Shown here in pieces: positions 1,682 through 56,281 of a DNA stretch of 57,819 bases. Positions within the stretch are counted from its first letter, which is position 1. Each line of letters opens with the position of its first letter. The position numbers were made by a program, and so were the translations under genes. The stretch comes from an uncultured Lachnospiraceae bacterium (GTDB taxonomy: Bacteria; Bacillota; Clostridia; Lachnospirales; Lachnospiraceae). The notes under the pieces were generated by a model. The model did no database searches and was not told the DNA's origin. It worked only from the letters and a program-made list of their open reading frames with translations. Location: assembly GCA_902781215.1 (NCBI GenBank), contig CACZIO010000012.1, forward strand, positions 1 through 57,819, read 5' to 3'.

Positions 1682-1834
1682 CGTGAAACCACCTGGGACG
1701 TATCTAACCGGTTCTTTTTTGAACCGGGAGAATCGCCCTGGGTGGTTCTTTTTGAACCAGGAGAAACGTCCCAAGTGGTTTCTTTTTGAACCAGGAGAAA
1801 CGTCCCAAGTGGTTTTTCCAAGTGGTTTTTCCAT
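1682..1834. repeat. dispersed GGGACG-type repeat, hairpin plus 34-bp tandem units
   Basis: Member of the repeat family described under findings. AAACCACCTGGGACG near 1684 pairs imperfectly with the CCCTGGGTGGTT segment near 1737-1748, with an inner CCGGTTC/GAACCGG stem. Two 34-bp units follow, starting at 1754 and 1788 with GAACCAGGAGAAACGTCCC, then a duplicated AAGTGGTTTTTCC. It sits between convergent genes and may also serve as a bidirectional terminator. Confidence 0.8.
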
Positions 1835-1854
1835 GTTTTCACGTATGCGATTGG

Positions 1855-3078
1855 TCACCTGAAGGGCAGGTCATTGAACACGTACTCATCCAGACGCCTC
1901 ATGGCCTCGCGTACCCGGGCTTCGGGGAGGGCGAGGTTGATGCGGAGGTTCCATTGGCCGTTGAACATGGCGCCGTCCTGGAGGGCGACGCCGACGTGCC
2001 AGCAGAGCTGTTCGAGCTCGGTCAGGGTCCTGCCGTTGGTCCGGCACCAGTGTTGGCAGTCGGGGAAGAGCATGTAGGTGCCTTCGGGCTCGAAGAGGGA
2101 TACGCCGTGGAAATTTTCACGGATGTATCGGGCGGCAAAGCGGACGTTGCGGGTCAGGACCTGGCGGAGCTCGTCGACCCACCGGGCGCCTTCGGGGCTG
2201 TAGGCACCGATGAGGGCGTGCATGGAGAGGACGTTCATCTCGTTGTAGTGGCTGAGGGAGGACTCCTTGCGGATCCGGTCCCGGAGGGTGCGGTCGTAGA
2301 TGATGTGATAGCTGCCCACGAGGCCCGCCAGGTTGAAGGTCTTGGAGGGGGCGTAGAGGGCCACCGTCCTGTGGCGGGCGTCGTCGCTGATGCTCTGGCT
2401 GGGGATGTGGGTGTGGCCGGCTAGGACCAGGTCGGACCAGATCTCGTCGCTCACGACCTGGACGTCATATTTTTTGAAGAGGGCGTAGGCGCGCTCAAGC
2501 TCTTCGCGCTCCCAGACGCGGCCGCAGGGATTGTGGGGCGAGCAGAGGATGGCTGCGTGAATGTGCTTGTCGCGCAGCTTTTTTTCCATGTCGTCGTAGT
2601 CCATGCGGGGGACGCCGTCTTCGTCGGGGACGAGGGACGTGTGGACGATGTTCCAGCCGTTGTTGCGGAGGGTGTTGGTGAAGCCGATGTAGGTCGGTGT
2701 GTGGACGAGGACGTTGTCGCCGGGGGAGCACATGACGCGAAGGGCACTGACCAGGCCGCCGAGGACACCATTCTCGTAGCCGATGCATTCTTTTGTCAGG
2801 CCCTTGACGCCGTTGCGATTGGTCTGCCAGCGGATGATGGCGTTATAGTATTCGTCTGTGGGTGAGAAATAGCCGAAGGCGGGGTGGTCGATCCGCTTAT
2901 GGAGCGCCTCTGTGATCGAGGGCGCGGTGGGAAAGTTCATATCCGCCACCCACATGGGGATGAGGTCAAAGCCCTCCGCGGGGGCCTCCGGCGCGAAGCC
3001 GGGGATTTTGCCGACGGAGTCCACGGCGATGGCGTCGCGCCCGTGCCGGTCCATGATGGTCGTGAAGTCGTATTTCAT
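1855..3078 (-). CDS. patB: PatB/MalY-type PLP aminotransferase (putative C-S lyase)
   Basis: A 407-residue PLP fold-type I enzyme. MalY/PatB proteins cleave cystathionine and other cysteine-S-conjugates to pyruvate, ammonia and a thiol in the cytosol. Visible family marks are PMWVADMNFPTAP near the N-terminus, CSPHNPCGRVW, DEIWSDLV and the cofactor-lysine motif SKTFNLAG. ATG 3078 is chosen because AAGGAAGG precedes it. The open frame runs another 60 residues upstream, but only through a degenerate 9-bp tandem repeat that would encode a His/Asn/Arg-rich string absent from the family. The exact substrate cannot be told from the sequence; a plain aminotransferase role is possible. The gene stands alone, transcribed toward the secreted protein gene. 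Confidence 0.88.
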   Translation of the reverse strand: MKYDFTTIMDRHGRDAIAVDSVGKIPGFAPEAPAEGFDLIPMWVADMNFPTAPSITEALHKRIDHPAFGYFSPTDEYYNAIIRWQTNRNGVKGLTKECIGYENGVLGGLVSALRVMCSPGDNVLVHTPTYIGFTNTLRNNGWNIVHTSLVPDEDGVPRMDYDDMEKKLRDKHIHAAILCSPHNPCGRVWEREELERAYALFKKYDVQVVSDEIWSDLVLAGHTHIPSQSISDDARHRTVALYAPSKTFNLAGLVGSYHIIYDRTLRDRIRKESSLSHYNEMNVLSMHALIGAYSPEGARWVDELRQVLTRNVRFAARYIRENFHGVSLFEPEGTYMLFPDCQHWCRTNGRTLTELEQLCWHVGVALQDGAMFNGQWNLRINLALPEARVREAMRRLDEYVFNDLPFR

Positions 3079-3106
3079 TGAGATGTCCTTCCTTGTTCGG
3101 TTCATA

Positions 3107-3262
3107 CGAGTTGTATGAGCTGAATGAGCTGAACGAGCTGTATGATTCGCACGATTTGTATGACTTGTATGATTCGTATGATGTGCAGGTTTCATATGAT
3201 TCGTATGATGCGCACGATTTGCACGATTCACACGATTCGTATGATGCGCGATTCGCATACGG
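3107..3262. repeat. degenerate 9-bp tandem repeat upstream of patB
   Basis: Within the gene-free stretch 3079-3511, about 17 degenerate units of TATGATTCG or variants (CACGATTTG, TATGACTTG, GAGCTGAAT) run head to tail. Because the period is a multiple of three, several frames stay open, which produces spurious ORFs on both strands. The rest of the stretch shows no clear gene. Confidence 0.85.
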
Positions 3263-3511
3263 CCCTCTTTAGAGGGCGGCTGTTAAGTCTGATGATGAAT
3301 ACGTCCGGTATTCTCCAGAGGCCATTGTAACACAGACCGCGGCGTTGCGGCGGGAGATTCTTTTCCTTGCGTGACGGGTTGCGTGACGGGTGAAAAGCAC
3401 CTACAATAGAGAAGATGAATGATTCTTTGTGCTGTCTGTTACGGAGCGCTCCGCTATTTGGGGAGGCGCGGATCCGGCATGCAGCAGTCACACGGGCAAC
3501 GGAGGTGTGTA

Positions 3512-3910
3512 ATGAGCAAAATTCATGATTTTCTGAACGAAGCAGGTGTATTTTTCCTCGCGACAACGGACGGTGACCAGCCCAAGGTCCGCCCGCTCGG
3601 CTTCCACATGGAGATGGAAGGCAAGGAGATGTTCGGCGTGGGCAATACCAAGGATGTTTACAAGCAGATGGTCGCCAATCCCAAGGTGGAGATCGTCGCC
3701 GCCAAGCCCGACGGCCACTGGCTGCGCTACACCGGCAGGGTCGTTTTTGACACGGATCCCAGGTACGAGGCGGCAGGCCTGGAGGCCATGCCTTCCCTCA
3801 AGGATATCTACAATGAGAAGACCGGCCTTCATATGGCAATCTTCCACCTCGAGGACGCGACTGCAGTCGATATCCCCATGATGGGCCCCGGCGAGGACCT
3901 GCTGGCGTAA
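3512..3910 (+). CDS. pyridoxamine 5'-phosphate oxidase-like FMN-binding protein
   Basis: A 132-residue small split-barrel protein. ATG 3512 follows GGAGGTGTGTA, a strong ribosome binding site; the longer open frame to 3419 has no such signal. The opening IHDFLNEAGVFFLATTDGDQPKVRPLG is typical of the PNPOx-like/general stress protein 26 group, which bind FMN or F420 and reduce small substrates. Further marks are GVGNTKDVYKQMVANPKVEIVA and RYTGRVVF. Length fits the single-domain members. No substrate can be assigned. A 12-bp GC hairpin at 4021-4052 follows the gene and probably terminates it. Confidence 0.85.
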   Translation: MSKIHDFLNEAGVFFLATTDGDQPKVRPLGFHMEMEGKEMFGVGNTKDVYKQMVANPKVEIVAAKPDGHWLRYTGRVVFDTDPRYEAAGLEAMPSLKDIYNEKTGLHMAIFHLEDATAVDIPMMGPGEDLLA

Positions 3911-4020
3911 TAACAATAACGCAGAGAATAACACAGAGAAATGTAAAATCGGATAGAGGCGGTTCTGTCGACAGCAGCCATCGGCGGCTCCGGCAGGACC
4001 GCCTGTCTGTTCAGGGATGA

Positions 4021-4052
4021 AGGGGACCGGAGAATCGTCCCTCCGGTCCCCT
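4021..4052. repeat. GC hairpin related to the dispersed repeat family
   Basis: AGGGGACCGGAG (4021-4032) is perfectly complementary to CTCCGGTCCCCT (4041-4052) around an 8-base loop, AATCGTCC, that carries the family core. It lies 17 bases before the ABC exporter start and after the PNPOx-like gene. There is no T-run, so terminator function is uncertain. Confidence 0.75.
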
Positions 4053-4068
4053 GGATGACAGGATCAGA

Positions 4069-6313
4069 ATGAAAAACGCAGATCATCATACGGAAAAACT
4101 GAATAGGAGCGGGCCTGGAGCACTGCGGTTTCCGACCAACCGGAGCCTGACCATGTATTTTATGCGCGGCAGCATTGTCTTTTTTGCGGGCAGTGCCGTG
4201 TTCGCGTGTCTGGTCTCGATGTTTGACCTGGTGATCCCGCGGCTGATCCAGTGGACAGTGGACGCTGTCATCGGCGGAAACCTGGCGTCTCTGCCCGGCT
4301 GGGCAGCCGGGGCGCTCGATCAGCTGGGGGGTGCGGACTACCTGCGCTCGCACCTGTGGCTGGCGGCGGCTCTGGTCGCCGGGGCGGCCCTGGGGGGCGC
4401 GGTGAGCCGGTACGGCTTCCGGGTCAGCAATGAGCGGGGGGCGGAGACGCTGATGCAGCGGATGCGGGACGAGCTCTTTTCGCATCTTTTGGCCCTGCCC
4501 TACGCATGGATCGGGGAAAACAGCACGGGGGATATCATCCAGCGGTGCACGTCGGATATCGATACCATCCGCGTCTTTGTCTCCGAGCAGCTGACGCATC
4601 TGCTGCAGGTCAGCATCATGGTGGTCATGTCGCTGTATTTCATGATCTCCATCCATCCCATGCTGACGGCGGCGGTGGCGGTCTTTATTCCGATCATGGT
4701 CATCAGCTCGCTCGTTTTTTACAGGCTGATCGGGGAGGAGTTCGAGACGGTCGACAGCGAGGAGGCGAGGCTGTCCGCGATCGCCCAGGAGAACCTGACG
4801 GGCGTGCGGGTGGTGCGGACCTTCGGGCGCGAAGAGTTCGAAAAGACGCGCTTCGAGAAGCAGAACCGGTTTTATACCGGGCACTGGATCCGGCTGATGC
4901 GGGTTCTGGCGGGCTTCTGGGTCTCCGGCAATGTGATCGCGACGACGCGCAATTTGACGGTGGTGGTCTTCGGCGTGGTTTTGTGCGTGCGCGGTGAGCT
5001 GACGGCGGGCGGCATGATCGCCTTTTTGTCCTACAATGCGCTGATGTCCGTGCCGATCCGGCAGATCGGCCGCATTATCGCCGATATGTCCAAGATGGAT
5101 GTGTCCGTGGAGCGTCTGCGCTACATCATGAACGCGCAGGCGGAGGATGACGGGGATGACACCTCTCCAAAAACTTCTGTAGAAATGTCTGCGGAACCTT
5201 CTGCTGAAACGCGCGCGGAACCTTCTCCGGAAAAGATTTCTGAACCTTTTACAGAAAAAAACGCGGAATCTTCCGCAGAGTCATCATCGGGCTATTCCAC
5301 AGAGAGGGGGAAAATCAGGGGCCATGGCTTACGGCCGCCCATGAACCGCGATATTGTCTTTTCTCATGTGAAATTCCGCTACGGAGAGGGCGCGCCGGAG
5401 ATCCTGCGTGATATTCATATGACCATCCGCACGGGCTCTACGGTGGGCATCCTGGGCGCGACGGGATCCGGCAAATCGACCCTGGTCCAGCTCCTGGACC
5501 GCCTGTGGGAGCTGCCAGCGGACGGCGGCAGTATTACGATCGGCGGGATCGACATTCGTGACATCGACCGCGGCTGGCTGCGGTCCAACATCGGCATGGT
5601 CCTGCAGGAGCCCTACCTTTTCTCCAGGACACTGGGGGAGAACATCGCGATCGCGATGAATCCGGAAAGGAATCCATCGACGGCACAGGAAGGACAGTTC
5701 GCCGGCTCCTTCGGAAATCGGTCTGCAGAAATGACAGAGCCGGATGGGAAGGAACCAGAGGGACGGTTCTCCGGAACCAGAGGGACGGTTCTCCGGCCCC
5801 TCCGGAAAACAGCCGGCTGAAATGACAGAACTGGCAGAACTGGATGAGAAGGATCTATCGCCGAAAGAAACAACAGCGGAAGAAAATGTGGACGCGGAAG
5901 TCCGGCGGGCGGCGCGGATCGCCAGTCTGGACGGGGCAATCGAAAAGTTTACGGACGGATACGACACCTTTGTCGGTGAGCGCGGTGTGACACTTTCCGG
6001 CGGCCAGAAGCAGCGCGCGGCGATTGCCCAGATGCTGGTGCGGCGCACGCCGGTCATGATCTTTGACGATTCCCTGTCCTCTGTGGATGCCGAGACGGAT
6101 GCCCGCATCCGCAGGGCACTGCGCGAGAATACGTGCGACGCGACCGTCATCCTGATTGCCCACCGGATCACGACCCTGCGGGATGCCGACGAGATCTTTG
6201 TCCTGGACGACGGCAGGATCGCGGAACACGGCAGCCACGACGAACTGGTCGCCCAGGGAGGCATCTACAGCCGGGTTTACGCCCTCCAGACCGGGGCGGA
6301 GCAGGCTTCATAA
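4069..6313 (+). pseudogene. ABC exporter subunit 1 (TMD-NBD), frameshifted by a 22-bp duplication
   Basis: First half of a heterodimeric ABC exporter. Frame 1 (4069-5820) gives an N-terminal six-helix membrane domain, Walker A GATGSGKST near residue 462 and the Q-loop LQEPYLFS, then stops out of frame. The rest of the nucleotide-binding domain (signature LSGGQKQR, Walker B, H-loop AHRITT) continues in frame 2 to 6313. The break coincides with two perfect copies of a 22-bp unit at 5751-5772 and 5773-5794. Removing one copy rejoins the reading frames exactly. Walker B ends in Asp-Asp (IFDDSLSSVD) rather than Asp-Glu, the degenerate site typical of one subunit in YheI/BmrC-type pairs. Two non-family inserts are present: a Glu/Ser/Thr-rich linker (about residues 360-415) and about 60 residues before the signature motif. 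Unless expressed by slippage or reversion, the product is truncated. Confidence 0.88.
5751..5794 (+). repeat. 22-bp perfect tandem duplication inside the ABC exporter gene
   Basis: Two identical adjacent copies of a 22-bp unit (GGAACCAGAGG + GACGGTTCTCC). Since 22 is 3n+1, the second copy shifts the frame by one. The unit carries the GGGACGGTTCT core of the dispersed intergenic family. Confidence 0.95.
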
Positions 6314-6329
6314 CTTTTTCCATTTTTTG

Positions 6330-6541
6330 GAAACCACCTGGAACCACCAGGGAAACCACCTGGGGGAAACCACCCGGGACGGTTCTCCCGGTATAAAAGA
6401 ACCATTCAGAACCGTCCCAAACGGTACAATGGCAGGCGGAAAAAAGGACCGGAGAACCGTCCCCGCGGTCCCAGCGCTTTAACGGCAGGCGGAAAAAGGG
6501 ACCGGAGAACCGTCCCTGTGGTCCCCTCGCTGTGGTCCCTC
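6330..6541. repeat. dispersed repeat cluster between the two exporter genes
   Basis: Fills the whole gap between the exporter subunit genes. It contains several AAACCACC starts, one GGGACGGTTCTCCCGGTA...AGAACCGTCCC hairpin, and two near-identical tandem units GGAAAAAGGACCGGAGAACC that include GGAGAACCGTCCC. It is non-coding. Confidence 0.85.
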
Positions 6542-6557
6542 GTGACAGGAAATCAAG

Positions 6558-8378: not shown

Positions 8379-8386
8379 GAACTGCC

Positions 8387-8552
8387 TGGGAAACCACTTG
8401 GGACGGTTCTGGCGGTACAAAAATCGCAAGGCAGAAACCACTAGGGAAACCACCGGGGACGGTTTTGATGGTACAGTGGCGGTAAAAAACCACGAGAACC
8501 GTCCCGGGCGGCACACTGACGGTAAAAAACCACGAGAACCGCCCCTGGTGGT
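8387..8552. repeat. dispersed repeat cluster upstream of holB
   Basis: Two forward half-units (AAACCACTTGGGACGGTTCT and AAACCACCGGGGACGGTTTT) followed by two reverse half-units starting GGTAAAAAACCACGAGAACC and ending in CGTCCC or CGCCCC. A hybrid of tandem and inverted arrangement typical of the family. Confidence 0.85.
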
Positions 8553-8611
8553 AGCGCTCCGGACTTCAAATGGCATGGAAAAAACCGCCCGCCTGCGTTA
8601 TACTGTAGGTC

Positions 8612-9706
8612 ATGGATAGATTTTCGGAGATCATCGGGCAGGACATCGTCCTCTCCCATTTGCAGAACGCGCTGCGCACGGACAGTGTGTCGCACGCCTA
8701 TATACTGAACGGAGCAAAGGGCTCCGGGCGGCATATGATCGCCCGGAGTTTTTCTGCTGCCCTGCTGTGTGAGGAGAGGGAAATGCCCGGCACGGAGAAT
8801 CACCCTGTGCCGGCAGGGGCCGGGGCCGATGACCAGGAGACCTCCGTTCACATGCGCAGCCGTTGGATCGAGCCCTGCGGCCGCTGTCATTCCTGCCTGC
8901 AGGCCCTGGCCGGGACCAATCCGGACATCAAGATCCTGGAGCGGGAAAAAGAAAACAGCATCGGCGTGAATGATATCCGCAAAATGCGGACGGATGTCTG
9001 GATCCGGCCCTACAGCGCCGCCCACAAGGTCTACATCATTCCGGACGCGGAGAAGATGACCCCCGCCGCCCAGAACGCCCTGCTCAAGACGCTCGAGGAG
9101 CCGCCCTCCTACGCGGTTCTCCTCCTGCTGGACGACGGGACAGACAGCTTCCTGCCGACCATCATGAGCCGCTGTGTGACCCTGCCCCTGCGTCCCGTCC
9201 CTGAAAAGGACGTCGAGACCTGTCTGCGGGAGCGGTTCGAAGCGGATGAACAGCACGCCCGCCTCTGCGCCCGCTTTTCCGGCGGCAGCATCGGCCGTGC
9301 CGCCCTCCTGCTGGAAAATGAGCACTTTGCAGCTCTGCGCGACAGGACGATTACATTCATACGCGATATCGCGAAAAAAGACGCTGCAGATATCGCCGTT
9401 TTTGCCAAAGAGGCCGCCTCGGAGGATGAGACCCAGGACCTGATTGACTTCCTCCTGACCTGGAACCGGGATCTGCTCGTCTGCCGCAGCACCAAAAGCA
9501 CGGAAAACTTGATTTTTACAGATGAAGTACAGTATATTATAGAAGCCGCACGTGCCGCCTCCTGGCGGGGCCTTCAGGCCGCCTCCGAGGCCGTCTTCCG
9601 CGCGCGCAGGCGCCTTTTTTCAAATGTCAACGCGGAGCTCACCCTGCAGATGATGCTCCTGGAGATCCGCGCAGCTTACCGGACGGAAGAAAAAACAGCC
9701 AGATGA
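8612..9706 (+). CDS. holB: DNA polymerase III subunit delta'
   Basis: A 364-residue clamp-loader subunit. It opens MDRFSEIIGQDIVLSHLQNAL with the phosphate-loop remnant NGAKGSGRHMIA. The zinc module has its first Cys at LLCEE and the rest in CGRCHSC. Between them lies an insert of about 30 residues (GTENHPVPAGAGADDQ...) that ordinary delta' proteins lack. Further family marks are VYIIPDAEKMTPAAQNALLKTLEEPP and the SRC motif of sensor 1 (IMSRC). The protein joins gamma/tau and delta to load the sliding clamp. It heads the conserved holB-ricT-trmN6-rsmI order. The last 53 bp of the coding region are repeated twice more beyond the stop codon. No strong Shine-Dalgarno precedes ATG 8612. Confidence 0.93.
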   Translation: MDRFSEIIGQDIVLSHLQNALRTDSVSHAYILNGAKGSGRHMIARSFSAALLCEEREMPGTENHPVPAGAGADDQETSVHMRSRWIEPCGRCHSCLQALAGTNPDIKILEREKENSIGVNDIRKMRTDVWIRPYSAAHKVYIIPDAEKMTPAAQNALLKTLEEPPSYAVLLLLDDGTDSFLPTIMSRCVTLPLRPVPEKDVETCLRERFEADEQHARLCARFSGGSIGRAALLLENEHFAALRDRTITFIRDIAKKDAADIAVFAKEAASEDETQDLIDFLLTWNRDLLVCRSTKSTENLIFTDEVQYIIEAARAASWRGLQAASEAVFRARRRLFSNVNAELTLQMMLLEIRAAYRTEEKTAR

Positions 9707-9819
9707 TGCTCCTGGAGATCCGCGCGGCCTACCGGACGGAAGAAAAAACAGCCAGATGATGCTCCTGGAGATCCGCGCGGCCTACCGGATGGAAGAGAAA
9801 ACAGCCAGATAATGCTCCC
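9650..9819 (+). repeat. 53-bp tandem repeat, three copies, over the holB 3' end
   Basis: Copies begin at 9650, 9703 and 9756 with ATGATGCTCCTGGAGATCCG, and a fourth starts at 9809 before diverging. Copies 1 and 2 differ at two sites, copies 2 and 3 at two. Copy 1 is coding; the holB stop codon arises at the copy 1/2 junction, and since 53 is not a multiple of three the extra copies cannot extend the frame. Confidence 0.95.
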
Positions 9820-9906: not shown

Positions 9907-11559
9907 ATGGAAAAGACCGAGAACGGCAAGATTAAAGTTGTCGGCGTCCGCTTCCGGACGGCAGGAAAAATCTATTATTTCGACCCGGGTGAGTTCGAGC
10001 TGACCCGCGGCAGGCATGTCATTGTGGAGACTGCCCGCGGCATGGAATATGGCTTTGTCGTCGGCAACCCCATGGAGGTCGATGCAAAGACTGTCCCGCA
10101 GCCCCTCAAGGCCGTCCTGCGCATCAGCACGCAGGAGGACGACGAGCGCGAGCAGAGAAACCGCGAAAAAGAGCGTGAGGCCTTCCGGGTCTGCCGCGAG
10201 CGCATCCGCCGCCGCAACCTGGACATGAAGCTCATCGACGCCGAATATACCTTTGACAACAGCAAGGTACTCTTTTATTTCACGGCGGACGGACGCGTGG
10301 ACTTCCGCGAGCTGGTCAAGGACCTGGCAGGCGTCTTCCGCACCCGCATCGAGCTGCGCCAGGTCGGCGTCCGTGACGAGACCAAGATCCTCGGCGGCTA
10401 CGGCAGCTGCGGACGGCCCCTGTGCTGCCACACCTGGCTGTCCGACTTCGTGCCCGTCTCCATCAAGATGGCCAAGGAGCAGAATCTGTCCCTCAACCCG
10501 GGCAAGATCTCGGGCGTGTGCGGCAGGCTCATGTGCTGCCTCAAAAATGAGGCGGAGACCTATGAGGAGCTCAACAAGGCACTTCCTCATCCCGGCGACG
10601 AAGTCGAGTCCTCTGACGGCCTCAACGGCCTCGTCGAGAGCGTCAACATCCTCCGTCAGACCGCCCGCATCATCGTCGAGGTGGATGACGAAAAGGAGCT
10701 GCATGAATATCATGTCGATGACCTGACCATCCTCCGCCGCCGCAAACGCGGCGCCAGCCGGCCTTCCATGAAAAAGAACGCCCAGCAGAACGGCGGGAAA
10801 GAAAAGGAAGGCAAAGAAGGCAAAGAAGGCGGCAGACACAGCGGCCGCGGCGGAAAAGAAGGAAAAGAAGGAAAAGAAGGCCGTGAGCCCCGCGAATCCC
10901 GCGAGGGCAGGAACGGACGCGAAGAACGCGAGGGCCGCGAAAACCGTGACGGAAACGGAGGACGTGATAATCGGGAAGGCCGCAGAGCCGCCCGGGAGAA
11001 TCGTGAGAACCGCGAAAATCGCGACGAGAGAGAAGGCCGCGAGGGCAGAAACAACCGCGAAAACCGCGAGGGCCGCGCCGGCCGCAGGGCTTCCCGTGAA
11101 AACCGTGAGAACCGCGAAGAGCGTGAAGGCCGTGAGGACAGAAGCGGCCGCGAAGAGCGTGAGGGCCGTGAAGAGCGCGAAGGCCGCGAGAGCAGAAGCA
11201 GCCGCAGACGCCGCGAACGTGAGCGCCGCCGCATGAACGCTGCAGGCGAGACAGCCGGCGAAAACAAGCCCGTCCCTGCAGATGCTGCTGAGCAGGCAGC
11301 AACTCCGGCATCCGCCCCTGCCTCTGCGCAGGCAGCAACGCCGGCGGCTGCCCCTGGATCCGTACCTGCCTCTGCGACGGAAGCAACTCCGGCATCCGCC
11401 CCTGAATCCGCACCTGCCTCTGCGCAGGAATCAGCGCCGGCATCCGCTCCTGAACCCGCGCCTGCAGCACCTGCAGCCACGGCAATTCCTGCCGCCCCTT
11501 CACAGGAAAATGCAGCTGCTCCCGCACAGGATAATGCAGCTGCGCCTGCGCAGGAATAA
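9907..11559 (+). CDS. ricT: PSP1-domain protein RicT (YaaT) with giant low-complexity tail
   Basis: Residues 1-285 are a standard PSP1/YaaT protein: IKVVGVRFRTAGKIYYFDPG, TKILGGYGSCGRPLCCHTWL, and CGRLMCCLKNE with the clustered cysteines of the family. In Bacillus, RicT works with RicA and RicF as an Fe-S-containing complex that directs RNase Y processing and helps sporulation and competence phosphorelay. Here the usual about 275 residues double to 550. Residues about 290-435 are Gly/Glu/Arg/Asn repeats (REGRENRE-like), and about 440-550 are Ala/Pro/Ser repeats (SAPASAQ-like). The first tail is strongly charged and probably disordered, possibly RNA-binding. AAGGA lies upstream of ATG 9907. 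The stop is 3 bp before the next gene, so the two are translationally linked. Confidence 0.92.
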   Translation: MEKTENGKIKVVGVRFRTAGKIYYFDPGEFELTRGRHVIVETARGMEYGFVVGNPMEVDAKTVPQPLKAVLRISTQEDDEREQRNREKEREAFRVCRERIRRRNLDMKLIDAEYTFDNSKVLFYFTADGRVDFRELVKDLAGVFRTRIELRQVGVRDETKILGGYGSCGRPLCCHTWLSDFVPVSIKMAKEQNLSLNPGKISGVCGRLMCCLKNEAETYEELNKALPHPGDEVESSDGLNGLVESVNILRQTARIIVEVDDEKELHEYHVDDLTILRRRKRGASRPSMKKNAQQNGGKEKEGKEGKEGGRHSGRGGKEGKEGKEGREPRESREGRNGREEREGRENRDGNGGRDNREGRRAARENRENRENRDEREGREGRNNRENREGRAGRRASRENRENREEREGREDRSGREEREGREEREGRESRSSRRRRERERRRMNAAGETAGENKPVPADAAEQAATPASAPASAQAATPAAAPGSVPASATEATPASAPESAPASAQESAPASAPEPAPAAPAATAIPAAPSQENAAAPAQDNAAAPAQE

Positions 11560-16365: not shown

Positions 16366-16475
16366 ATGGGACAGAACCGGGAGAACTGACCCGGGCCTTA
16401 CCTGCCTGAATCGTCCAGGCCGACTCTGGCATTTCACTGCCAAAAGAACCGGAAGAACCGTCCCTGCCGGTATAT
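16366..16475. repeat. dispersed repeat cluster upstream of pckA
   Basis: Contains GGGACAGAACCGGGAGAACTG near 16369 and AAAGAACCGGAAGAACCGTCCCTGCCGGTA near 16443. It is a degenerate, partly inverted member of the family inside the 558-base gap that precedes pckA. Confidence 0.65.
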
Positions 16476-16575
16476 TGTTGAACAATTCGGCCTGTTCGGG
16501 CAGGGCGGATCGGTGAAATGGCAGGAAATTCGCATATTTTCGCATAATTATAGAAGAAAAGCGATATCCAGTCGG

Positions 16576-22609: not shown

Positions 22610-23032
22610 TCAGATGATCTTTTTGATCAACGTTTTTAATCAGAAATGATTCCTGATGCAGGCACGAAGGAAAACAGCACAAAACAAACATATCCGGGGG
22701 CTGCTTAACTGCAGTCCCCGGGCAAATCAAAACATGAAATACCAGAAACCGCCTCTGTGTGGCATCTGGTATTTTTTTATTCCGAGTATTCATATATGCG
22801 GATATGTATCGGATATTGTATCTGCGGTGTATTGGATTTATAATAGGTAGTACCTGAAGAGCCCTGAAATCAGGTAATACTCCATTGTACTTGTTCGAAT
22901 ATGCAGGATTGGTGCTTTGAAATCAGAGTCTGTCTTGATCGTAATCTGACGGAATGTTGCTGGCTATACGCCAGTCTGAATTTAAAAGAACTGCAGTTTT
23001 TGTTTCGTGCAGGTATAAGGAGGAGAATTACA
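22610..23032 (+). repeat. 5' non-coding part of PDDEXK element copy A
   Basis: Matches, in inverted orientation, the region 28617-29032 upstream of copy B. It carries a strong GC hairpin (CCGGGGGCTG...CAGTCCCCGG near 22695-22722), a terminator-like hairpin and a ribosome binding site AAGGAGG at 23018-23024. Homology between the copies starts at TCAGATGAT (22610) and is lost just before it, so this is likely the element edge. Confidence 0.8.
22736..22780. terminator. terminator-like hairpin inside element copy A
   Basis: AATACCAGA pairs with TCTGGTATT followed by T residues. The same hairpin occurs in inverted copy B at 28871-28916, where both sides carry A/T runs. It may insulate the element from outside transcription. 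Confidence 0.75.
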
Positions 23033-23937
23033 TTGGGTGAAAAGGACTTGACGGAAAAACACTGGAAGCTTTTAACGATGTTTTTGCCGATATTATTAAT
23101 GGATTATTGTTCAACGGGGAACAGGTATTATAACAGGAATCATTGATTGATGCACAGACCTTCACCATGTACAAGGCGGACGGAAATCTGCATCATCAGG
23201 ACAGAGATGTCGCAAAATACTGGATTGACCAACATGGAGAGCGGATCACGGTGAGACTGGCATTTCTGGGAATTGAGAACCAGTCGAATTATGATCCGGA
23301 TATGCCGTTACGTGTAATAGGCTACGACGGAGCGGTTTATCGCGCAGAGCTGTCACAGAAGGACCGATATCCTGTCGTGACACTGGTGCTGTATTTCGGA
23401 GATAGGCCATGGGGGAAGAACAGGACAATCCATGATGTGGTGCAAATCCCGGAAAAGTTTCGGCCGTTTGTGAATGACTACAAGATTAATTTGTTCGAGA
23501 TTGCTGACCTCCCGGAAACAGCGGTTGAACATTTTCACAGTGATTTCCGGGCAGTTGTCGACTATTTCATTTCCAGCAGGAGGGAGCAGGTTTACGAACT
23601 GAAGAACTCTGCTGACTTCACGCACGTGGATGAACTGCTGTCACTGATGTCAGTGCTGACACAGGATGACCGGTTCGCAGAATCATTAGAAGGGGAAGGA
23701 GTCAAACCGGAGAATATGAGAGAAATATGGGATCGGATTGAAGAAAGAGGTCGTCAGAAAGGACTGGATGAGGGACATCGGGAAGGGCGTCAGGAAGGCT
23801 TCAGAGAAGGAGCGGACCAGAATCGTCTGGAAAATATCAGAAGTATTATGGAAACAATGAAGCTGACAGCAAAGCAGGCCATGGAGGCTCTGAAGATTCC
23901 GGAGTCAGAGCAGTCCAAGTATATCGCCAGATTGTAA
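23033..23937 (+). pseudogene. PD-(D/E)XK nuclease family transposase (Rpn-like), decayed copy A
   Basis: Compared with the intact copy at 27723-28616, this copy has lost one A from a six-A run near residue 11 (frameshift) and carries a C-to-T change that turns a CAA Gln codon into TAA about 65 bases later. After these two lesions the frame is intact to the end: DAQTFTMYKADGNLH, LAFLGIENQSNYD, VVTLVLYFGD, and the C-terminal RxKGLDEGHREGRQEG coiled region. Like copy B it would begin at TTG (23033) behind AAGGAGG. The family (PDDEXK_2, related to the recombination-promoting Rpn nucleases) is thought to assist DNA mobility. The 264-codon remnant could in principle be expressed but lacks the first 36 residues. 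Confidence 0.85.
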
Positions 23938-23961
23938 CATGTGTAACCAGTGATCAGCATG

Positions 23962-24061
23962 CAGGGACGTATCTCGCTGGTATAAAACACCAACGAGATA
24001 TGTTCCATGGGTTCCATGTACCTCACCGGAATAAAACCGGCGAGGTCCGTCCCTGGCGGTA
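23962..24061. repeat. dispersed repeat hairpins before rtcB
   Basis: AGGGACGTATCTCG-CTGGT pairs imperfectly with ACCAACGAGATATGTTCC, and CCTCACCGG pairs with CCGGCGAGG followed by TCCGTCCCTGGCGGTATAC. GGGACGTATC-type variant of the family, just upstream of rtcB. Confidence 0.75.
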
Positions 24062-24106
24062 TACATATGTGAACAGGTATCAGGCAAAACGGATTAAGGT
24101 AAGAAA

Positions 24107-25363: not shown

Positions 25364-25474
25364 TATAAAACCACCAGGGACGTATCTAAACGGTTTACAT
25401 TGCCCGTAAATCTATCAGGGACGTATTTAAAACGGTCTGCATTGTCCGTAACGCTATCTGGGACGTATCGCCAG
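25364..25474. repeat. three tandem GGGACGTAT-type repeat units
   Basis: Units read CCAGGGACGTATCTAAACGGTTTACATTG..., TCAGGGACGTATTTAAAACGG... and TCTGGGACGTATCGCC, about 40 bp apart. Family variant with GTATC instead of GGTTCT. They lie just before the start region of the next gene. Confidence 0.85.
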
Positions 25475-27340: not shown

Positions 27341-27438
27341 ACACCTTGCAGCTGCGAAAAACCGTGAATTCGCACAACCACCACTATAGTACCCAATATC
27401 CGCAGCATCTGTCAAGGAGATGGTAGAAGCGTTATTTC

Positions 27439-27711
27439 TTACAATCTTGCAATATATTTGGACTGTTCCGACTCCGGAATCTTCAGGGCCTCCATGGCCT
27501 GTTTCGCTGTCAGCTTCATCGATTCCATAAGGCTTCTAATATTTTCCAGACATTTCTGATCCGCTCCTTCTCTGAAGCCTTCTTGATGTCCCTCATCCAG
27601 TCCTTTCTGACGCCCTCTTTCTTCAACACGATCCAATAAACTGCTCATATTCTGAGGTTTGCCTCCTTCCCCTTCTAATGATTCTGCGAACCGGTTGTCC
27701 TGAGTCAGCAC
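27439..27711 (-). pseudogene. partial third copy of the PDDEXK transposase 3' end
   Basis: Encodes the last 90 residues of the same family (LTQDNRFAESLEGEGGKPQNM ... SEQSKYIARL) directly downstream of intact copy B and in the same orientation. It is closer in its final residues to copy A (SEQSKYIARL) than to copy B (ADQLKYISRL), so it is not a simple local duplication of B. No start signal; a remnant of a nested or recombined element. Confidence 0.85.
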
Positions 27712-27722
27712 TGATTTACAGC

Positions 27723-28616
27723 TTACAATCTGGAGATATATTTGAGCTGATCCGCTTCAGGGATCTTCAAAGCATCCATGGCCTGTTTCGCCGTCAGCTT
27801 CATCGTTTCCATAATACTTCTGATATTTTCCAGACGATTCTGATCCGCTCCTTCTCTAAAGCCTTCTTGATGTCCCTCATCCAGTCCTTTCTGGCGGCCT
27901 CTTTCTTCTATACGATCCAATAAGCTGCTCATATTCTGAGGTTTGCCTCCTTCCCCTTCTAATGATTCTTCGAACCGGTTGTCCTGTGTCAGCACTGACA
28001 TCAGTGTCAGCAATTCATCCACATGCGTGAAGTCAGCGGAGTTTTTCAGTTCGTAAACCTTCTCGCTCCTGCTGGAAATGAAATAGTCGATAACTGTCCG
28101 AAAGTCGCTGTGAAAATGATTAACCGCTTCCTCCGGCAGGTTTGCAATCTCAAACAGATTAATCTTGTAGTCGTTTACAAAAGGCCGGAGCTTCTCCGGG
28201 ATGTGAACCACATCGTAGAGTGTCCGGTTCCTGCCCCATGGCATGTCTCCGAAATACAGCACCAGTGTCACGACCGGATATCGGTCCTTCTGTGACAGCT
28301 CTGCGCGATAAACCGCTCCGTCGTAACCGATCACGCGTAACGGCATATCCGGATCATAATTCGACTGGTTCTCAATTCCCAGAAATGCCAGTCTCACCGT
28401 AATCCGCTCTCCGTGTTGATCAACCCAGTACTTTGCGACATCCCTGTCCTGGCGATGCAACTGTCCATCGGCTTTGTACATAGAGAAAGTCTGTGCATCA
28501 ATCAATGATTCCTGTTGTAATACCTGCTCCCCATCAAATAATAATCCATTAATAATATCGGCAAAAACATCGTTAAATGCTTCCAGTGTTTTTTCCGTCA
28601 TGTCCTTTTCAGCCAA
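27723..28616 (-). CDS. PD-(D/E)XK nuclease family transposase (Rpn-like), intact copy B
   Basis: A 297-residue protein beginning at a TTG (28616) behind AAGGAGG; the longer frame to an upstream ATG covers sequence before the ribosome binding site. It opens AEKDMTEKTLEAFNDVFADIINGLLFDG, followed by LIDAQTFSMYKADGQLHRQDRDVAKYW, LAFLGIENQSNYDPDMPLRVIGYDGA and VVTLVLYFGD, the expected nuclease core, where the acidic metal ligands would lie. The C-terminal quarter has the repeated GLDEGHQEGFREG pattern typical of Rpn/PDDEXK_2 proteins. It is the undamaged counterpart of copy A about 4 kb away in inverted orientation. Role in mobility is known for relatives but unproven here. Confidence 0.87.
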   Translation of the reverse strand: MAEKDMTEKTLEAFNDVFADIINGLLFDGEQVLQQESLIDAQTFSMYKADGQLHRQDRDVAKYWVDQHGERITVRLAFLGIENQSNYDPDMPLRVIGYDGAVYRAELSQKDRYPVVTLVLYFGDMPWGRNRTLYDVVHIPEKLRPFVNDYKINLFEIANLPEEAVNHFHSDFRTVIDYFISSRSEKVYELKNSADFTHVDELLTLMSVLTQDNRFEESLEGEGGKPQNMSSLLDRIEERGRQKGLDEGHQEGFREGADQNRLENIRSIMETMKLTAKQAMDALKIPEADQLKYISRL

Positions 28617-29032
28617 AACAGTTCTCCTCCTTATACATGCTCGAAACAAAAACAGTAGCTCTTTCAAATACAAACCGGCGTATAGCCAGTAAAATTCCGT
28701 CTGATCACGATCAGGACAGAATCTGATTTCAAAGCACTTTTTCTGCAAATTCGCGCAAGTACACTGGAGTATTCCCTGATTTCAGGACCTTTCAGGTACC
28801 TCCTATTATAAAACCAATGCGCAGTAGATACAATATCCGATACATATCCGCATATATGAATACTTGGAATAAAAAAATACCAGATTCCACACGAAAGTGG
28901 TTTCTGGTATTTTTTGTTTTGATTGTCCGGGGACTGCAGTTAAACAGCCCCCGGATATGTTTGTTTTGTGATGTTCTCCTCCGTGCCTGCACCAGGAATC
29001 ATTTCTGATTAAGAACGTTGATCAAAGCCATC
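28617..29032 (-). repeat. 5' non-coding part of PDDEXK element copy B
   Basis: Inverted counterpart of 22610-23032, sharing the GC hairpin, the hairpin at 28871-28916 and the final TCAGATGAT edge (as ATCATCTGA near 29028). Differences are scattered substitutions. The remaining bases to 29144 show no gene. Confidence 0.8.
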
Positions 29033-29144
29033 ATCTGAAAGCAGTCCTAAGATCCTCCAGCATTTCCTCTCGTGCAGCAGGCTTCTGCGCCTTCTGAGAC
29101 TGCGCTTTCCAACCACACACAGTTCCCCTGTTGTATTCTTGATT

Positions 29145-35854: not shown

Positions 35855-35932
35855 AAAAAGAAACCGTCCGGGACGTATCCGGCGATACAAAAAAAGAAAC
35901 CTCCCTGGATGTATCCGGCGGTACAAAAAAGT
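35855..35932. repeat. two tandem GGGACGTATCC-type repeat units
   Basis: AAGAAACCGTCCGGGACGTATCCGGCGATACAAAAAA is followed by AAGAAACCTCCCTGGATGTATCCGGCGGTACAAAAAA. Part of the 613-base gap between the ArsC/Spx-like gene and the first lipoprotein gene; apart from this, the next hairpin and A/T-rich sequence, nothing was recognised there. Confidence 0.85.
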
Positions 35933-35967
35933 GCGTGATCAATCAGATCCATCTGCCTGAAAATATC

Positions 35968-36002
35968 AAAAAGAACCACGAGAACGTCCCGTGGTTCTTT
36001 TC
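35968..36002. terminator. hairpin with repeat-family core, bidirectional terminator-like
   Basis: AAAAAGAACCACG (35968-35980) pairs with CGTGGTTCTTTT (35990-36002... one strand T-run, other strand T-run). The loop AGAACGTCC carries the repeat core. It stands between divergent genes, so its use as a terminator is unclear. Confidence 0.7.
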
Positions 36003-36309
36003 AGGATGGGGCTGGATGATTCCGGAAGTCGCTGCGTCTCTACTTTTATCCCGGCATTTTTGCCTGCTTTTGGTAAGTCGGGATTTGGTACAAAGGCGGC
36101 GCTGAGTGGGAACATTTCATGTGAAGAGTTATACATGCCGGATTTAACATGCAAAAACGCAATAGAAAAGTATCAAATATAAGTATTTGAACATACATTT
36201 TTAAAAACATATAATGTTGATCAAGAAAAGAAGAAAAGAAGCTCGTAGAAGAAAGAAGCCCGCAGGTTTGTTCCTGTATGTTTGTGAGCGGGAGGTAATC
36301 GTCACAGAT

Positions 36310-37854: not shown

Positions 37855-37917
37855 AAACCACCAGGGACGTATCTAAACGGTACAAAAAGAACCGTTTAGA
37901 TACGTCCCTGGTGGTTT
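37855..37917. terminator. perfect 27-bp hairpin, full-length repeat-family member
   Basis: Left arm 37855-37881 (AAACCACCAGGGACGTATCT...) and right arm 37891-37917 are exact reverse complements with a 9-base loop ACAAAAAGA. It lies 43 bases after the lipoprotein stop and 9 bases before the stop of the convergent MarR gene, so it may terminate both. It is the cleanest example of the dispersed family's palindromic form. Confidence 0.9.
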
Positions 37918-39647: not shown

Positions 39648-39705
39648 AACTTATCGCACATGTTTTTTTCGATACTGCTTGACACAATGTTTTGCAGCAT
39701 GAAAA

Positions 39706-39826
39706 AACCACCCGGGACGGTTCTGGCGGTACAAAAAGTACCAGGAGAATCGTCCAGGGTGGTCTGTTTCAGGTGGTTTCGTCGCGGCGGTACAAAAGTA
39801 CCATGAGAACCGTCCCAAGTGGTTTT
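39706..39826. repeat. two dispersed-repeat hairpins in tandem
   Basis: ACCACCCGGGACGGTTCTGGCGG pairs with the later CCAGGAGAATCGTCCAGGGTGGT around GGTAC-AAAAA-GTACC. A second hairpin (AGGTGGTTTCGTCGCGGCGG ... ACCATGAGAACCGTCC) follows with the same GGTAC-AAAA-GTACC tip. Both lie after the SDR stop. Confidence 0.9.
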
Positions 39827-41727: not shown

Positions 41728-41848
41728 CTCCTGGTTCAAACGGCGATATACGTCCCGGGCGGTACACCGGCTGGTATCCAAAAAGAACCGGCGATATACG
41801 TCCCGGGCGGTACACAAAAACCGGCAAAATACGTCCCGGGCGCTACAT
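41728..41848. repeat. three tandem repeat units after the LysR gene
   Basis: CGTCCCGGGCG(G/C)TAC-bearing units (ATATACGTCCCGGGCGGTAC twice) begin at 41742, 41790 and 41823. It occupies the gap between the convergent LysR and membrane protein genes; a variant of the GGGACGTATC type. Confidence 0.85.
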
Positions 41849-42363
41849 CATCTTTCGTACCGTATCTCCGCATCCCCGGGGACGCGGTTCAGGATGTATT
41901 TCCGGACAAATTCCAGGTCTTCCGCTGACGGGGCGTAGACGCGGACCTTCTTGATATATTTATTCTGCAGTTCTATGCAGTCTCTGTGCACGATGACGGT
42001 CCTGGCGTTTTTATAATAGAAAAAGACAGAGTTTCTGCCGGTTCCGACATGTATGTCAGTGTCTGACATCCAGAACTGTTCCATCGGGTCCTTGACAAGG
42101 TATATGGCCGGCCAGAAGGCCAGGAGCGTGATCAGCAGAAATACAAGGACGGAGCCGGCAACGATCAGCAGGGATTTCCAGTCATGGAAGCGCCAGGAGA
42201 GAAATACGCCATAGAACAGAAGGAAGGCACCTATTCCAAAACAAAGGTACATGCCCACCCGCATGTTGTGGCGATGGTATTCTACATCGATGGAGCATTG
42301 CCATTTGTAGGAGCCGTCCGGCTGCTGTGTGATTTGATCCGGATAGTATGTTAATGGATTCAT
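41848..42363 (-). CDS. hypothetical membrane protein with PH-like C-terminus
   Basis: A 171-residue protein with two adjacent membrane helices (about residues 38-55 and 65-88) and a C-terminal cytoplasmic domain (FWMSDTDIHVGTGRNSVFFYYKNARTVIVHRDCIELQNKYIKKVRVYAPSAEDLEFVRKYI). The helix pair plus a beta-rich domain with a final helix is the general plan of YcxB-like/bacterial PH proteins of Lachnospiraceae, inferred by shape only. AAGGTGG precedes ATG 42363. The gene is isolated; its stop abuts the repeat array. Confidence 0.75.
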   Translation of the reverse strand: MNPLTYYPDQITQQPDGSYKWQCSIDVEYHRHNMRVGMYLCFGIGAFLLFYGVFLSWRFHDWKSLLIVAGSVLVFLLITLLAFWPAIYLVKDPMEQFWMSDTDIHVGTGRNSVFFYYKNARTVIVHRDCIELQNKYIKKVRVYAPSAEDLEFVRKYILNRVPGDAEIRYER

Positions 42364-50958: not shown

Positions 50959-51045
50959 ACAGTTGTGCAGGCATTAAAAGGGAAACCACAAAAAAGAGAA
51001 GATAAAAAGAGAAACCAACAGAACAGGGAAGGAAGTAACAGTACT

Positions 51046-51465: not shown

Positions 51466-51601
51466 TTGTATATGCTGGATTTCGAATCGCCTCCGGGCAA
51501 TTGGCTTTGAGGCCTGTGCAGACCTTCCCAATCATGCCGGAGTACGTAAGTGCCCCGGTTCTGAGGTACTGTCGGTATGATGATTCATGGAACCGGATGG
51601 C

Positions 51602-52030
51602 TTATCTGCCGGATGAAATACGGCGGTCATCGTCGTCCGGTTCTTTTTTAAAAAGTCCTCCGATCAGCAGGAGGAAGCCGCGGATCACAGCGAAGATCAC
51701 GAAGAGCAGCATGAAGCCGGCCAGGCCCGAGATGATGTCATCCAGGTCCATATTTCCGGTGCCGGTATAGCCCTGCCCGATCTCGATCGCGAAGGATACG
51801 ACGATGAGGATGGTGATCACATAGATCCAGGCAATGATGAGGACATGCTTTTTTGACAGCGCGAGGAATAGCGGGTACACCACAAAGAGGAGCCCCATTC
51901 CCAGAAGCCCCATCACCACAAAATGCAGCTGTTTGTCCGTGAGGAAGAGTTCATAGGAGTCATTGAGCTGCAGAAGTTTTACGTGAATGCGCGCGATCTC
52001 ACGCACGCAGAAATATAAGAAATCAACCAT
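51602..52030 (-). CDS. VanZ-like small membrane protein
   Basis: A 142-residue protein with three to four membrane helices: VVMGLLGMGLLFVVYPLFLAL, VLIIAWIYVITILIVVSFAIEIGQ, ISGLAGFMLLFVIFAVIRGFLLLIGG. The stretch FAIEIGQGYTGTGNMDLDDIISGLAGF fits the VanZ-like pattern (E-x2-Q...G-x3-D-x2-D-x2-x-N/S). VanZ gives low-level teicoplanin resistance in enterococci, but most homologues have no assigned role. AAAGGATCG lies upstream of ATG 52030. It is convergent with the ArsD-like gene. Confidence 0.8.
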   Translation of the reverse strand: MVDFLYFCVREIARIHVKLLQLNDSYELFLTDKQLHFVVMGLLGMGLLFVVYPLFLALSKKHVLIIAWIYVITILIVVSFAIEIGQGYTGTGNMDLDDIISGLAGFMLLFVIFAVIRGFLLLIGGLFKKEPDDDDRRISSGR

Positions 52031-52080
52031 TTCATCGATCCTTTCAAAGATTCCAGAATCTGTTCAATCAATGTTCAACC

Positions 52081-52113
52081 AATCCCCGGAGACTGTCAGT
52101 CCCGGGGATTTTT
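52081..52113. terminator. GC hairpin with T-run upstream of the VanZ-like gene
   Basis: AATCCCCGG (52081-52089) and CCGGGGATT (52102-52110) form a perfect stem followed by TTT on the plus strand. There is no plus-strand gene directly before it, so either it stops readthrough or it is a minus-strand leader element. The gap 52031-52489 otherwise holds a degenerate dispersed-repeat trace at 52268-52320 and a promoter. Confidence 0.65.
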
Positions 52114-52267
52114 GAGTATAGCACAGCAGGATATGACCTGCCACAGCGTCACAGGAAAATTCATGGACAATTCATCAATTGCCCACCGTCTAAGCATACG
52201 CGTATAGGCGGTAGTCTTCTGCGGAGATATGATCATCCAGGGGATCAAGGGATGGCGCCTCGGTTCC

Positions 52268-52320
52268 TGAGAACCGTCCAATCCGCACTTTTTTAGGAAA
52301 ATCTTGGAACAGAGAACCAT
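52268..52320. repeat. degenerate dispersed-repeat trace
   Basis: GGTTCCTGAGAACCGTCC and, after a spacer, AGAGAACCATTTTGCCGG recall the reverse half of the family (AGAACCGTCC...CGGTA). Low similarity. Confidence 0.4.
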
Positions 52321-52390
52321 TTTGCCGGTGTCGGATCGCCTCTTCGGTCCTCTGTTTATAAAATTTTCATTTCTGATCGATTTCGAAATT

Positions 52391-52419
52391 TTGACAAATT
52401 ATTAATTATCATGTATCAT
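52391..52419 (+). promoter_or_regulatory. sigma-A-type promoter of the solute-binding fusion gene
   Basis: TTGACA, a 17-base AT-rich spacer and TATCAT, 70 bases before the chosen start. Confidence 0.8.
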
Positions 52420-52489
52420 AAATGTTACAAATATTACGAAATGTTAAATTCTGGCAGGTATGCCGGGGTTCAGGAAGGAAAATCTGCGA

Positions 52490-55375: not shown

Positions 55376-55380
55376 GTTAA

Positions 55381-55430
55381 AAACAGAGCCGAAAAATTCC
55401 CATTGAGGACGCTTTCAGCTCTGTTTTTTT
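55381..55430 (+). terminator. terminator of the solute-binding fusion gene
   Basis: AAACAGAGC (55381-55389) pairs with GCTCTGTTT (55418-55426) and is followed by TTTT. Confidence 0.9.
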
Positions 55431-55455
55431 GTAACAGAGAGCTGTTCAGACAATT

Positions 55456-55878
55456 CAGACGCTGTCAGAAAAAGCGTGTGAGAAGCAGCTGGGGATCAGC
55501 AGCAGAGTCTGCGGCCTGTCCATCCCCCTGGGCTCCACGCTGAATATGGACGGCACCTGCGTACAGCTGGCTGTCTTTGCCCTGACCATGGCAAATGTCT
55601 ACGGCGTGAAGCCTTCCCCGGGCAGCCTGGTCATCCTGGGGATCACGATCATCATCCTTTCCATGGGGATGCCCGGCATTCCCGGCGCAGGTGTGATCTG
55701 CCTGACCGTATTGCTCCAGCAGCTCCAGGGTCCCACGGAGTCGGTCAGCCTCGTCATGGGGATCGCGCTGCTGGTGGGCATGTTCCTGTGCATGAGCAAC
55801 TGCACAGGCGACGTCGTCGTGACGGCCATCGTCGCCCGGAGCGCGGGAGAGATCGATCTGGATGTCTATAAGGCGTAG
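55456..55878 (+). pseudogene. C-terminal remnant of a dicarboxylate/amino acid:cation symporter
   Basis: An open frame reading QTLSEKACEKQLGISSRVCGLSIPLGSTLNMDGTCVQLAVF..., ending DVVVTAIVARSAGEIDLDVYKA, matches the last about 140 residues of DAACS/GltP-type symporters: the conserved PLGSTLNMDGT helix-7 motif, the GMPGIPGAG HP2 loop and the CTGDVVVT helix-8 segment. The first about 270 residues, with all of the N-terminal helices and HP1, are missing. The homology begins just after the terminator of the preceding gene, so a deletion joined it there. No start codon or ribosome binding site suits the fragment. It is closed by a strong hairpin. Confidence 0.88.
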
Positions 55879-55886
55879 GATGAAAG

Positions 55887-55938
55887 AAAAGCCCTTCACA
55901 ATGTTTCTGATCTCTCAGGGCCATTGTGAAGGGCTTTT
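55887..55938. terminator. 17-bp terminator hairpin after the symporter remnant
   Basis: AAAAGCCCTTCACAATG and CATTGTGAAGGGCTTTT are exact reverse complements around an 18-base loop. T-run present in both directions. The gap to 56291 otherwise holds only the repeat array. Confidence 0.93.
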
Positions 55939-56128
55939 CCACATAAAGGGGGAGTATGAAAATCTATGGTTTGAAACGAAATAACGAAGGGGGAAATCTG
56001 TCGTTCTCTTTCGCTTACAATAGACATGATACACTATGATTCTTAAATCACAATTTCGGATTTCTAAAAAGAAGATAAAATAAGCGGATACAATCGGTAA
56101 AATAGGAATCCGGGGGCTTTGCCAGCAC

Positions 56129-56281
56129 GAAAACCTCCCGGGACATATCCCGATGGTTCTATTTGAAACGGAAGAACCGCCCCGGGTGGTTTTTCGGATG
56201 GCCTTTTTTGAACCGGGAGGACCGCCCCGGGTGGTTTTCCGGATGGTCTTTTTTGAACCGGGAGAACCGCCCCGGGTTGTC
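56129..56281. repeat. dispersed repeat with three 45-bp tandem units
   Basis: CCGCCCCGGGTGGTTTT begins at 56177, 56222 and 56267 (the last diverged), each with TTTTTTGAACCGGGAG between. Preceded by AAACCTCCCGGGACATATCC. It is immediately downstream of the MFS gene's stop, so it is an additional candidate terminator. Confidence 0.9.

Follow-up and report, generated by a model that had tools for sequence, protein, structure and literature searches.

A dispersed hairpin repeat family in an uncultured Lachnospiraceae bacterium, interpreted as REP/REPIN elements probably orphaned of their RAYT transposase

The contig CACZIO010000012.1 of an uncultured Lachnospiraceae bacterium (assembly GCA_902781215.1), of which positions 1 to 57,819 were analysed as one window, contains a dispersed family of short hairpin-forming repeats with the common core GGGACGGTTCT. 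We interpret these repeats as repetitive extragenic palindromic (REP) units and as inverted REP doublets (REPINs) of the type associated with REP-associated tyrosine transposases (RAYTs), a reading to which we assign a probability of roughly 0.85, and regard them as probably orphaned in this genome after loss of the RAYT gene. The units are short, dispersed, mainly extragenic, present in many copies and show inverted pairing, which are the broad features of REPs and REPINs. A first-pass annotation of the window had proposed, among other possibilities, a REP-like palindrome linked to a Y1 transposase. This was right in kind, as the same core is found on both or one of the flanks of RAYT genes in relatives, and fell short for the window's own assembly, in which no RAYT was detected.

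Within the window, GGGACGGTTCT occurs at 19 sites with at most one mismatch against 1.03 expected, and GGGACGTATC at 15 against 3.05. Four loop variants pooled amount to 32 sites, compared to a mean of 3.85 and a maximum of 7 in 20 shuffles. These 32 sites group into 14 clusters, 13 of them outside genes as called with our own simple gene caller (the exception is at 5751-5796), which bears out the earlier description of about 14 dispersed intergenic loci at these places. The family is likewise not confined to the window: the whole assembly (3.33 Mb, 94.67% complete, 132 contigs) holds 124 exact GGGACGGTTCT cores on the forward and 108 on the reverse strand, together 232, against 0 and 1 for the reversed control, and the density of exact cores in the window (11 in 58 kb) exceeds that of the genome. 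The GGGACGTATCT loop occurs 16 times on each strand of the assembly (control 1 and 0). Further loops in a sample of about 0.7 Mb are GGGACGGATCC/T (n=34, some of them without arms and probably due to chance) and GGGACGTTTCT (n=6), and variant loops are found on the same arms. Three of 113 sampled exact cores lie inside called genes, and seven at stretch edges. A known Rfam family was rejected, since Rfam gave no match at the gathering threshold. Among open PMC papers (main text, no supplements), none of the 7 with GGGACGGTTCT or the 23 with GAACCGTCCC concerns bacterial repeats as judged by the title and the start of the abstract; a description elsewhere is possible.

The aligned sites share a consensus, so that the units are not unrelated hairpins. 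In 159 sampled sites with at most one mismatch it reads approximately RRAACCACC-N to the left of the core and C-N-GG(T/G)GGTTCTTTT to the right. The build is unusual and best read as a short hairpin with a stem of variable sequence and an 11-nt core within its loop. A test for contiguous stems in the window's genome returned a small excess (mean 3.71 versus 3.18 in shuffles, of which the largest of 200 reached 3.40), for which reason a pairing test anchored on ACC/GGT was added. Among the 85 of 159 sites that could be anchored, outward position 1 is paired in 36 versus 20.5 expected and position 3 in 39 versus 27.0; in neither case was any of 1000 shuffles as high. Neighbouring units up to 120 bp apart in the sampled stretches are convergent in 34 cases, tandem in 45 and divergent in a single one. 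The perfect 27-bp hairpin reported at 37855-37917 is real (fold z -13.1). Folding of ten window stretches supported the hairpins in part, with z below -3.5 in four, between -2 and -3 in two and no significance in the remaining four.

The connection to RAYTs comes from relatives. Of at least 581 RAYT relatives in a scan of species genomes, the best 80 were obtained, and most of these 80 records bear the names of Firmicutes groups. The 172 loci with a RAYT match were reduced to 150 after removal of near-identical proteins, namely 79 of the 80 species-scan loci ("named" loci) and 71 Lachnospiraceae loci. At a distance of up to 400 bp from the RAYT, 40 of the 79 named loci (32 of them on both sides) and 16 of the 71 Lachnospiraceae loci carry an exact core; shuffled flanks gave 0 in both sets. 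The five commonest 8-mers in the 400-bp flanks of the 150 loci are all pieces of GGGGACGGTTCT, and CCGTCCCC is present in 68. With one mismatch allowed, the outermost core copy upstream of the RAYT is in + orientation in 54 cases and in - orientation in two, and the downstream counts are 51 for - and seven for +. Ten genomes behind named RAYT loci contain 5 to 105 exact cores each (reversed controls 0 to 3). Other RAYTs display different motifs in the same flank places (GGGACGTG, GGGACGGGGT, GGGACGGAG, CCTCTGGGG), and on a quick tree of 129 full-length RAYTs the loop labels require 34 changes versus 64.2 when shuffled (0 of 200 shuffles), a clustering which is aided by near-copies.

In a separate group of RAYTs from the same genus (L088, L092, L101, L103 and L117), the flanking units have, in place of the GGGACG core, the loop CCTCTGGGG or CCTCTGAGG; on the tree this label requires 3 changes, as opposed to 14.5 after shuffling. 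The GGGACGTATCT loop is absent from the examined stretches of four RAYT loci (L105-L108) and of two RAYT fragments (G193, G202). The latter two genomes (L109-L114) hold 29 and 59 exact GGGACGTATCT cores, all outside their examined RAYT stretches, and all 15 sampled copies have the stem TGTGTCA...TGACACA.

The relatives' enzyme carries the signature of TnpAREP class 2, an HUH motif combined with Y---NP, and the residues H60, H62, Y119, N123 and P124 are invariant in 24 and in 35 RAYT sequences. All five RAYTs compared with NCBIfam REP_Tyr_transpos match it, one of them above the 80-bit cut-off. For the Desulforamulus putei RAYT, the best structural match of the predicted fold (mean pLDDT 91.1) is E. 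coli TnpAREP 4er8 (E 1.9e-7), which is also the sole match at E 0.01 or better in a PDB sequence search. The model has helices at the C-terminus. Matches to C-terminal helix-turn-helix (HTH) domains are weak in eight of ten RAYTs and absent in two, none exceeds a curated cut-off and none is to Bac_DnaA_C; these weak HTH-like tails suggest that the relatives' RAYTs may belong to subclass 2.1.

The loop is common to many Firmicutes, and the stem differs between partner enzymes. RAYTs with an exact core and enough context numbered 55 for a test of stem covariation and 54 for a test of stem and foot. When each RAYT is represented by a single copy, stems average 4.22 bp versus 2.25 (sd 0.15) with shuffled partners and reach at least 5 bp in 28 of 55 versus 6.9% of shuffles; positions 4 and 5 are paired in 45 and 41 of the 55, with all four pair types present. 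The best copy per RAYT has a stem of at least 5 bp in 40 of 54, around loops of 11-17 nt. Among these 40 RAYT-flanking units, the 8 nt preceding the stem on its 5' side contain GTAG in none and GTGG in one (shuffled means 0.8 and 1.1), CGTC in none and its complement in two. The arms of the two flanks of one RAYT have a mean identity of 0.75 and those of different RAYTs 0.39, and an identity of at least 0.7 is reached by 28 of 38 same-RAYT pairs versus 42 of 1406 between-RAYT pairs. Different stems also coexist inside one genome: G190 has two RAYTs with the stems CTCACACAG and AGCGCGC, and 24 of its 28 sampled exact copies match the arms of its own RAYTs or of a similar G150 enzyme at 0.7 or more, and G201 has three, with the stems TGAGTCA, TTGTCAG and GGAGACAG, the second of them with a one-base variant of the core. 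Compared with shuffles within genomes, stems are in excess in G190, G160 and G009 and in pooled copies of six RAYT-less genomes; no such excess is seen in G150 and G045, whose sampled copies have similar stems. It is conceivable, at somewhat less than an even chance, that this pattern represents a two-part address code in a large RAYT clade reported without REPs, in which the Firmicutes-wide 11-nt loop would be the handle and the stem of each RAYT its identity.

Relatives from the same genus allow repeat numbers to be set against RAYT presence. A RAYT profile built from 24 relatives (A1) gave some match in 28 of 61 genomes; the examined RAYT loci are a subset of those in these genomes, and G155 and G159, with fragments only, were classed as without. 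In ten of the 26 genomes whose RAYT match is more than a short fragment, an examined RAYT is flanked by the core (at most one mismatch), and 20 or more exact copies are present in nine of these ten versus one of the 16 others (Fisher p 3e-5). The 35 genomes with no RAYT or a short fragment only fall into eight with 36-232 copies and 27 with at most 6. The window's genome has the highest copy number of all 61.

If these repeats are REPs and REPINs, each unit would consist of a short stem, variable in sequence, and a loop holding the core. Such units would be non-autonomous and hairpin-forming, and a RAYT of the HUH-Y1 (TnpAREP) class would probably copy them in single-stranded form. Two facing units, with the core in + and then in - orientation, would form a REPIN, the likely mobile unit, and the RAYT gene of relatives, between an upstream + unit and a downstream - unit, would occupy the position of the short REPIN spacer. 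The enzyme may read the loop together with the stem, and mobility and recognition by the enzyme are both parts of this model. The window's genome would have lost its RAYT after the spread, with the orphaned population now altered by mutation and tandem slippage.

Several observations weigh against this interpretation. The A1 profile found no match in the window's assembly, and a second profile of 35 named RAYTs, with E values up to 10, returned no RAYT there and one weak unrelated match. The arms of 92 of 97 sampled exact copies of this genome match no examined RAYT at 0.7, from which we infer that its own enzyme is probably not among the examined RAYTs. Covariation within the genome is modest, with none at outward positions 2 and 4-6 of the 85 anchored of 159 sites, and the stems of 21 anchored TATCT sites show none at all. 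In a control at the same loci, exact cores were also found in the two outer 800-bp ends of 10 of 60 named loci, so part of the RAYT linkage could be general density or dispersed background. Furthermore, the ten RAYT-bearing genomes (0.21-1.00) and the eight RAYT-less ones (0.55-0.88) do not differ in the fraction of near-exact cores that are exact; the latter look no more decayed, which is an argument against a family long dead, or one for a hidden enzyme. Neither empty sites nor transposition was observed.

As no RAYT was detected in a 94.67%-complete assembly, the family looks orphaned, or the gene falls in a gap. Repeat-flanked genes tend to break contigs, and the cognate RAYT might therefore be present in the organism inside an assembly gap, in which case the repeats would not be orphaned. 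We regard this as a serious but rather unlikely explanation. It would suit the incompleteness of the assembly and its 132 contigs as well as the state of the repeat-rich RAYT-less genomes, but the repeat-rich G167 and G197 (97 and 98% complete) likewise lack a match to the RAYT profile, and eight of 35 genomes with at most a RAYT fragment are repeat-rich. The Y1 transposases that the genome does possess offer a different source. Pfam Y1_Tnp has six matches in the assembly, four to full-length genes, whose open frames span 128-175 aa, and two to short fragments, and three weak matches to NCBIfam REP_Tyr_transpos coincide with three of these. The four full-length genes are read as IS200/IS605-type TnpA by size and neighbours, and the repeats might be derivatives of these elements similar to miniature inverted-repeat transposable elements. 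This was rejected as very improbable: the examined TnpA flanks show other hairpins, the sole core seen in them lies about 0.8 kb from one TnpA and past another gene, and Y1_Tnp matches are entirely lacking in G197 and G199, both repeat-rich. The weak match of the second RAYT profile in the window's genome (E 0.01) was also dismissed as a RAYT candidate; its open reading frame looks like a sigma-type HTH protein in our own reading, made without a family search.

The placement of the repeats bears on an explanation without any transposase, by which they would be regulatory hairpins under selection, acting as terminators or in mRNA stabilisation, that spread through recombination and persist because of their function. 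In a sample of 544 called genes (82% coding, from stretches partly picked for containing repeat matches), 72 loci were placed: 37 between tandem genes, 19 convergent, 10 divergent, four at stretch edges and two genic. Convergent regions, 54 of the 482 intergenic regions in the sample, are thus favoured, and 26 of the 37 loci in tandem regions are nearer the 3' end of the upstream gene, so the suspected preference for gene 3' ends holds to this extent; the divergent loci are close to their share (57 of 482), which speaks against regulatory hairpins. One unit (35967-36003) is terminator-like, and the proposal of terminators spread by copying is to that degree supported by it and by the 3'-end bias. 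However, RAYT linkage and stems specific to each RAYT find no place in such an explanation, the T-rich stretch adjoining the units is, judged from sequence, the REPIN tip, and avoidance of gene starts is expected for any insertion. We therefore consider a purely regulatory origin improbable. Chance hairpins or slippage scars of no common origin are hardly credible: local slippage is evident from the tandem arrays and can account for them, but not for the dispersed copies, the counts far exceed shuffles and reversed controls, the units obey a common orientation rule, and the whole-genome count excludes chance hairpins.

Interpreted as RAYT-associated REPs and REPINs, the repeats can be compared with known systems, for which we draw on excerpts of four papers. 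Like the GTAG REPs and REPINs described mainly from Proteobacteria (PMC3733652, PMC6006769, PMC8266576), they are short dispersed hairpins, mostly intergenic and mostly inverted dimers, and the repeat flanks a Y1 transposase gene that is present in one copy and has a repeat family of its own, in the present case in relatives. GTAG REPs carry GT(A/G)G 5' of the stem and usually have short loops, and TnpAREP of two groups are described as using GTAG plus bulge or loop bases (PMC8266576), whereas no such foot was seen in the present family and its common part is the 11-nt loop sequence. CGTC REPs (PMC3733652) are similar in that CGTC lies within the complementary core AGAACCGTCCC and inverted dimers predominate, but theirs is an unpaired end tag next to a 4-5 nt loop, with no linked transposase according to the excerpt, whereas here CGTC is inside a loop of 11-17 nt and the family is RAYT-linked in relatives. 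Since the GTAG foot was looked for and not seen, the family is set apart from GTAG and CGTC REPs, although it is REP-like and RAYT-linked in relatives. Further parallels are TIRtrons (TIRYT, PMC3733652), in which some terminal inverted repeats form moderate families, and subclass 2.1 (PMC6006769), which share RAYT-like genes, HTH-like tails (weakly matched here) and GGGG-rich inverted repeats. TIRtrons carry the motif GGGGWSAS, which GGGGACGG breaks at the seventh base; GGGGACAG, which fits it, is found beside 18 of the 79 named RAYTs. The words Firmicutes and Clostridi do not appear in the main text of PMC3733652. For subclass 2.1, the second largest in the TnpAY1 family, automatic and manual searches reported in the excerpt of PMC6006769 found no REP-like sequences nearby; the automatic search required GTAG or GTGG, and short hairpins were limited to loops of 2-5 nt. 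The present family differs from this survey by up to hundreds of dispersed copies and by stem-loop covariation. Repeat populations in genomes without a RAYT gene are on record for E. coli REPINs (PMC8049555), where the strains belong to a single species and its RAYT is known; here the populations are in species of one genus, and the enzyme of this genome's family is probably not among the examined RAYTs.

If the RAYTs found here are indeed subclass 2.1, the repeats would provide a defined and testable substrate for a subclass reported without REPs. A fixed loop on a variable stem could help to separate a readout common to the enzymes from a readout of identity, and the genus allows repeat-rich species with a RAYT to be compared with repeat-rich species lacking one. 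Should the two-part code prove true, the RAYT-less repeat-rich genomes, the window's own among them, would show, as natural experiments, what becomes of an orphaned REP population.

The clusters of the window illustrate the forms that the units take. Inverted arrangements comprise the perfect REPIN at 37855-37917 (two TATCT units, arms of 27 bp), a REPIN at 39703-39765 with an additional - unit (39703-39825, mixed strands, z -7.1), and an inverted pair of a TATCT unit (+) and a degenerate unit (-) at 23962-24066. Mixed clusters consist of one + unit followed by three - units (6350-6535), two + units followed by two - units (8387-8560), and a degenerate + unit followed by three - units with a period of 45 (56127-56289). 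At 1682-1816 (+), a TATCT-loop unit precedes three inverted tandem units with a period of 34, with GGGACGTTTCT loops and one degenerate loop. Lone hairpins with 12-bp stems, both on the - strand, are located at 4021-4052 (core GGGACGATTCT, z -3.6) and at 35967-36003 (the terminator-like unit, with a shortened core, z -6.0), and a further lone - unit at 16443-16477 (z -2.5) lies near a more degenerate one at 16374-16395. Tandem arrays are formed by TATCT-type units at 25364-25470 (+, period 42), by two units at 35855-35930 (+, period 36) and by three units at 41735-41850 (-, spacings 48 and 33). The tandem periods of 33-48 bp given in the first-pass annotation were thus recovered as periods of 34, 36, 42 and 45 and as these two spacings, in addition to a period of 22. 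A one-mismatch core without arms at 52268-52282 (-) is doubtful and may be a chance occurrence.

The period of 22 belongs to a tandem pair of 22-bp units (5751-5796, +) within the reading frame of an ABC exporter gene (4069-6313), which is broken into two frames at this tandem. In the first frame, Pfam ABC_tran is matched over positions 1-80 of 137 and no further; the signature-like part falls in the other frame. Repeat number might act as a switch for the split exporter, with an assembly error as the alternative. Other repetitive structures in the window include a large inverted duplication around an RtcB-like gene (22610-23942 and 27438-29038, with further segments), the arms of which are 732 nt long and 88% complementary, one side with a 284-bp tandem duplication. 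Tandem arrays with periods including 53, 93, 48 and 9 bp, some within long open frames, are found at 9647-9818, 10846-11556 and 3140-3249.

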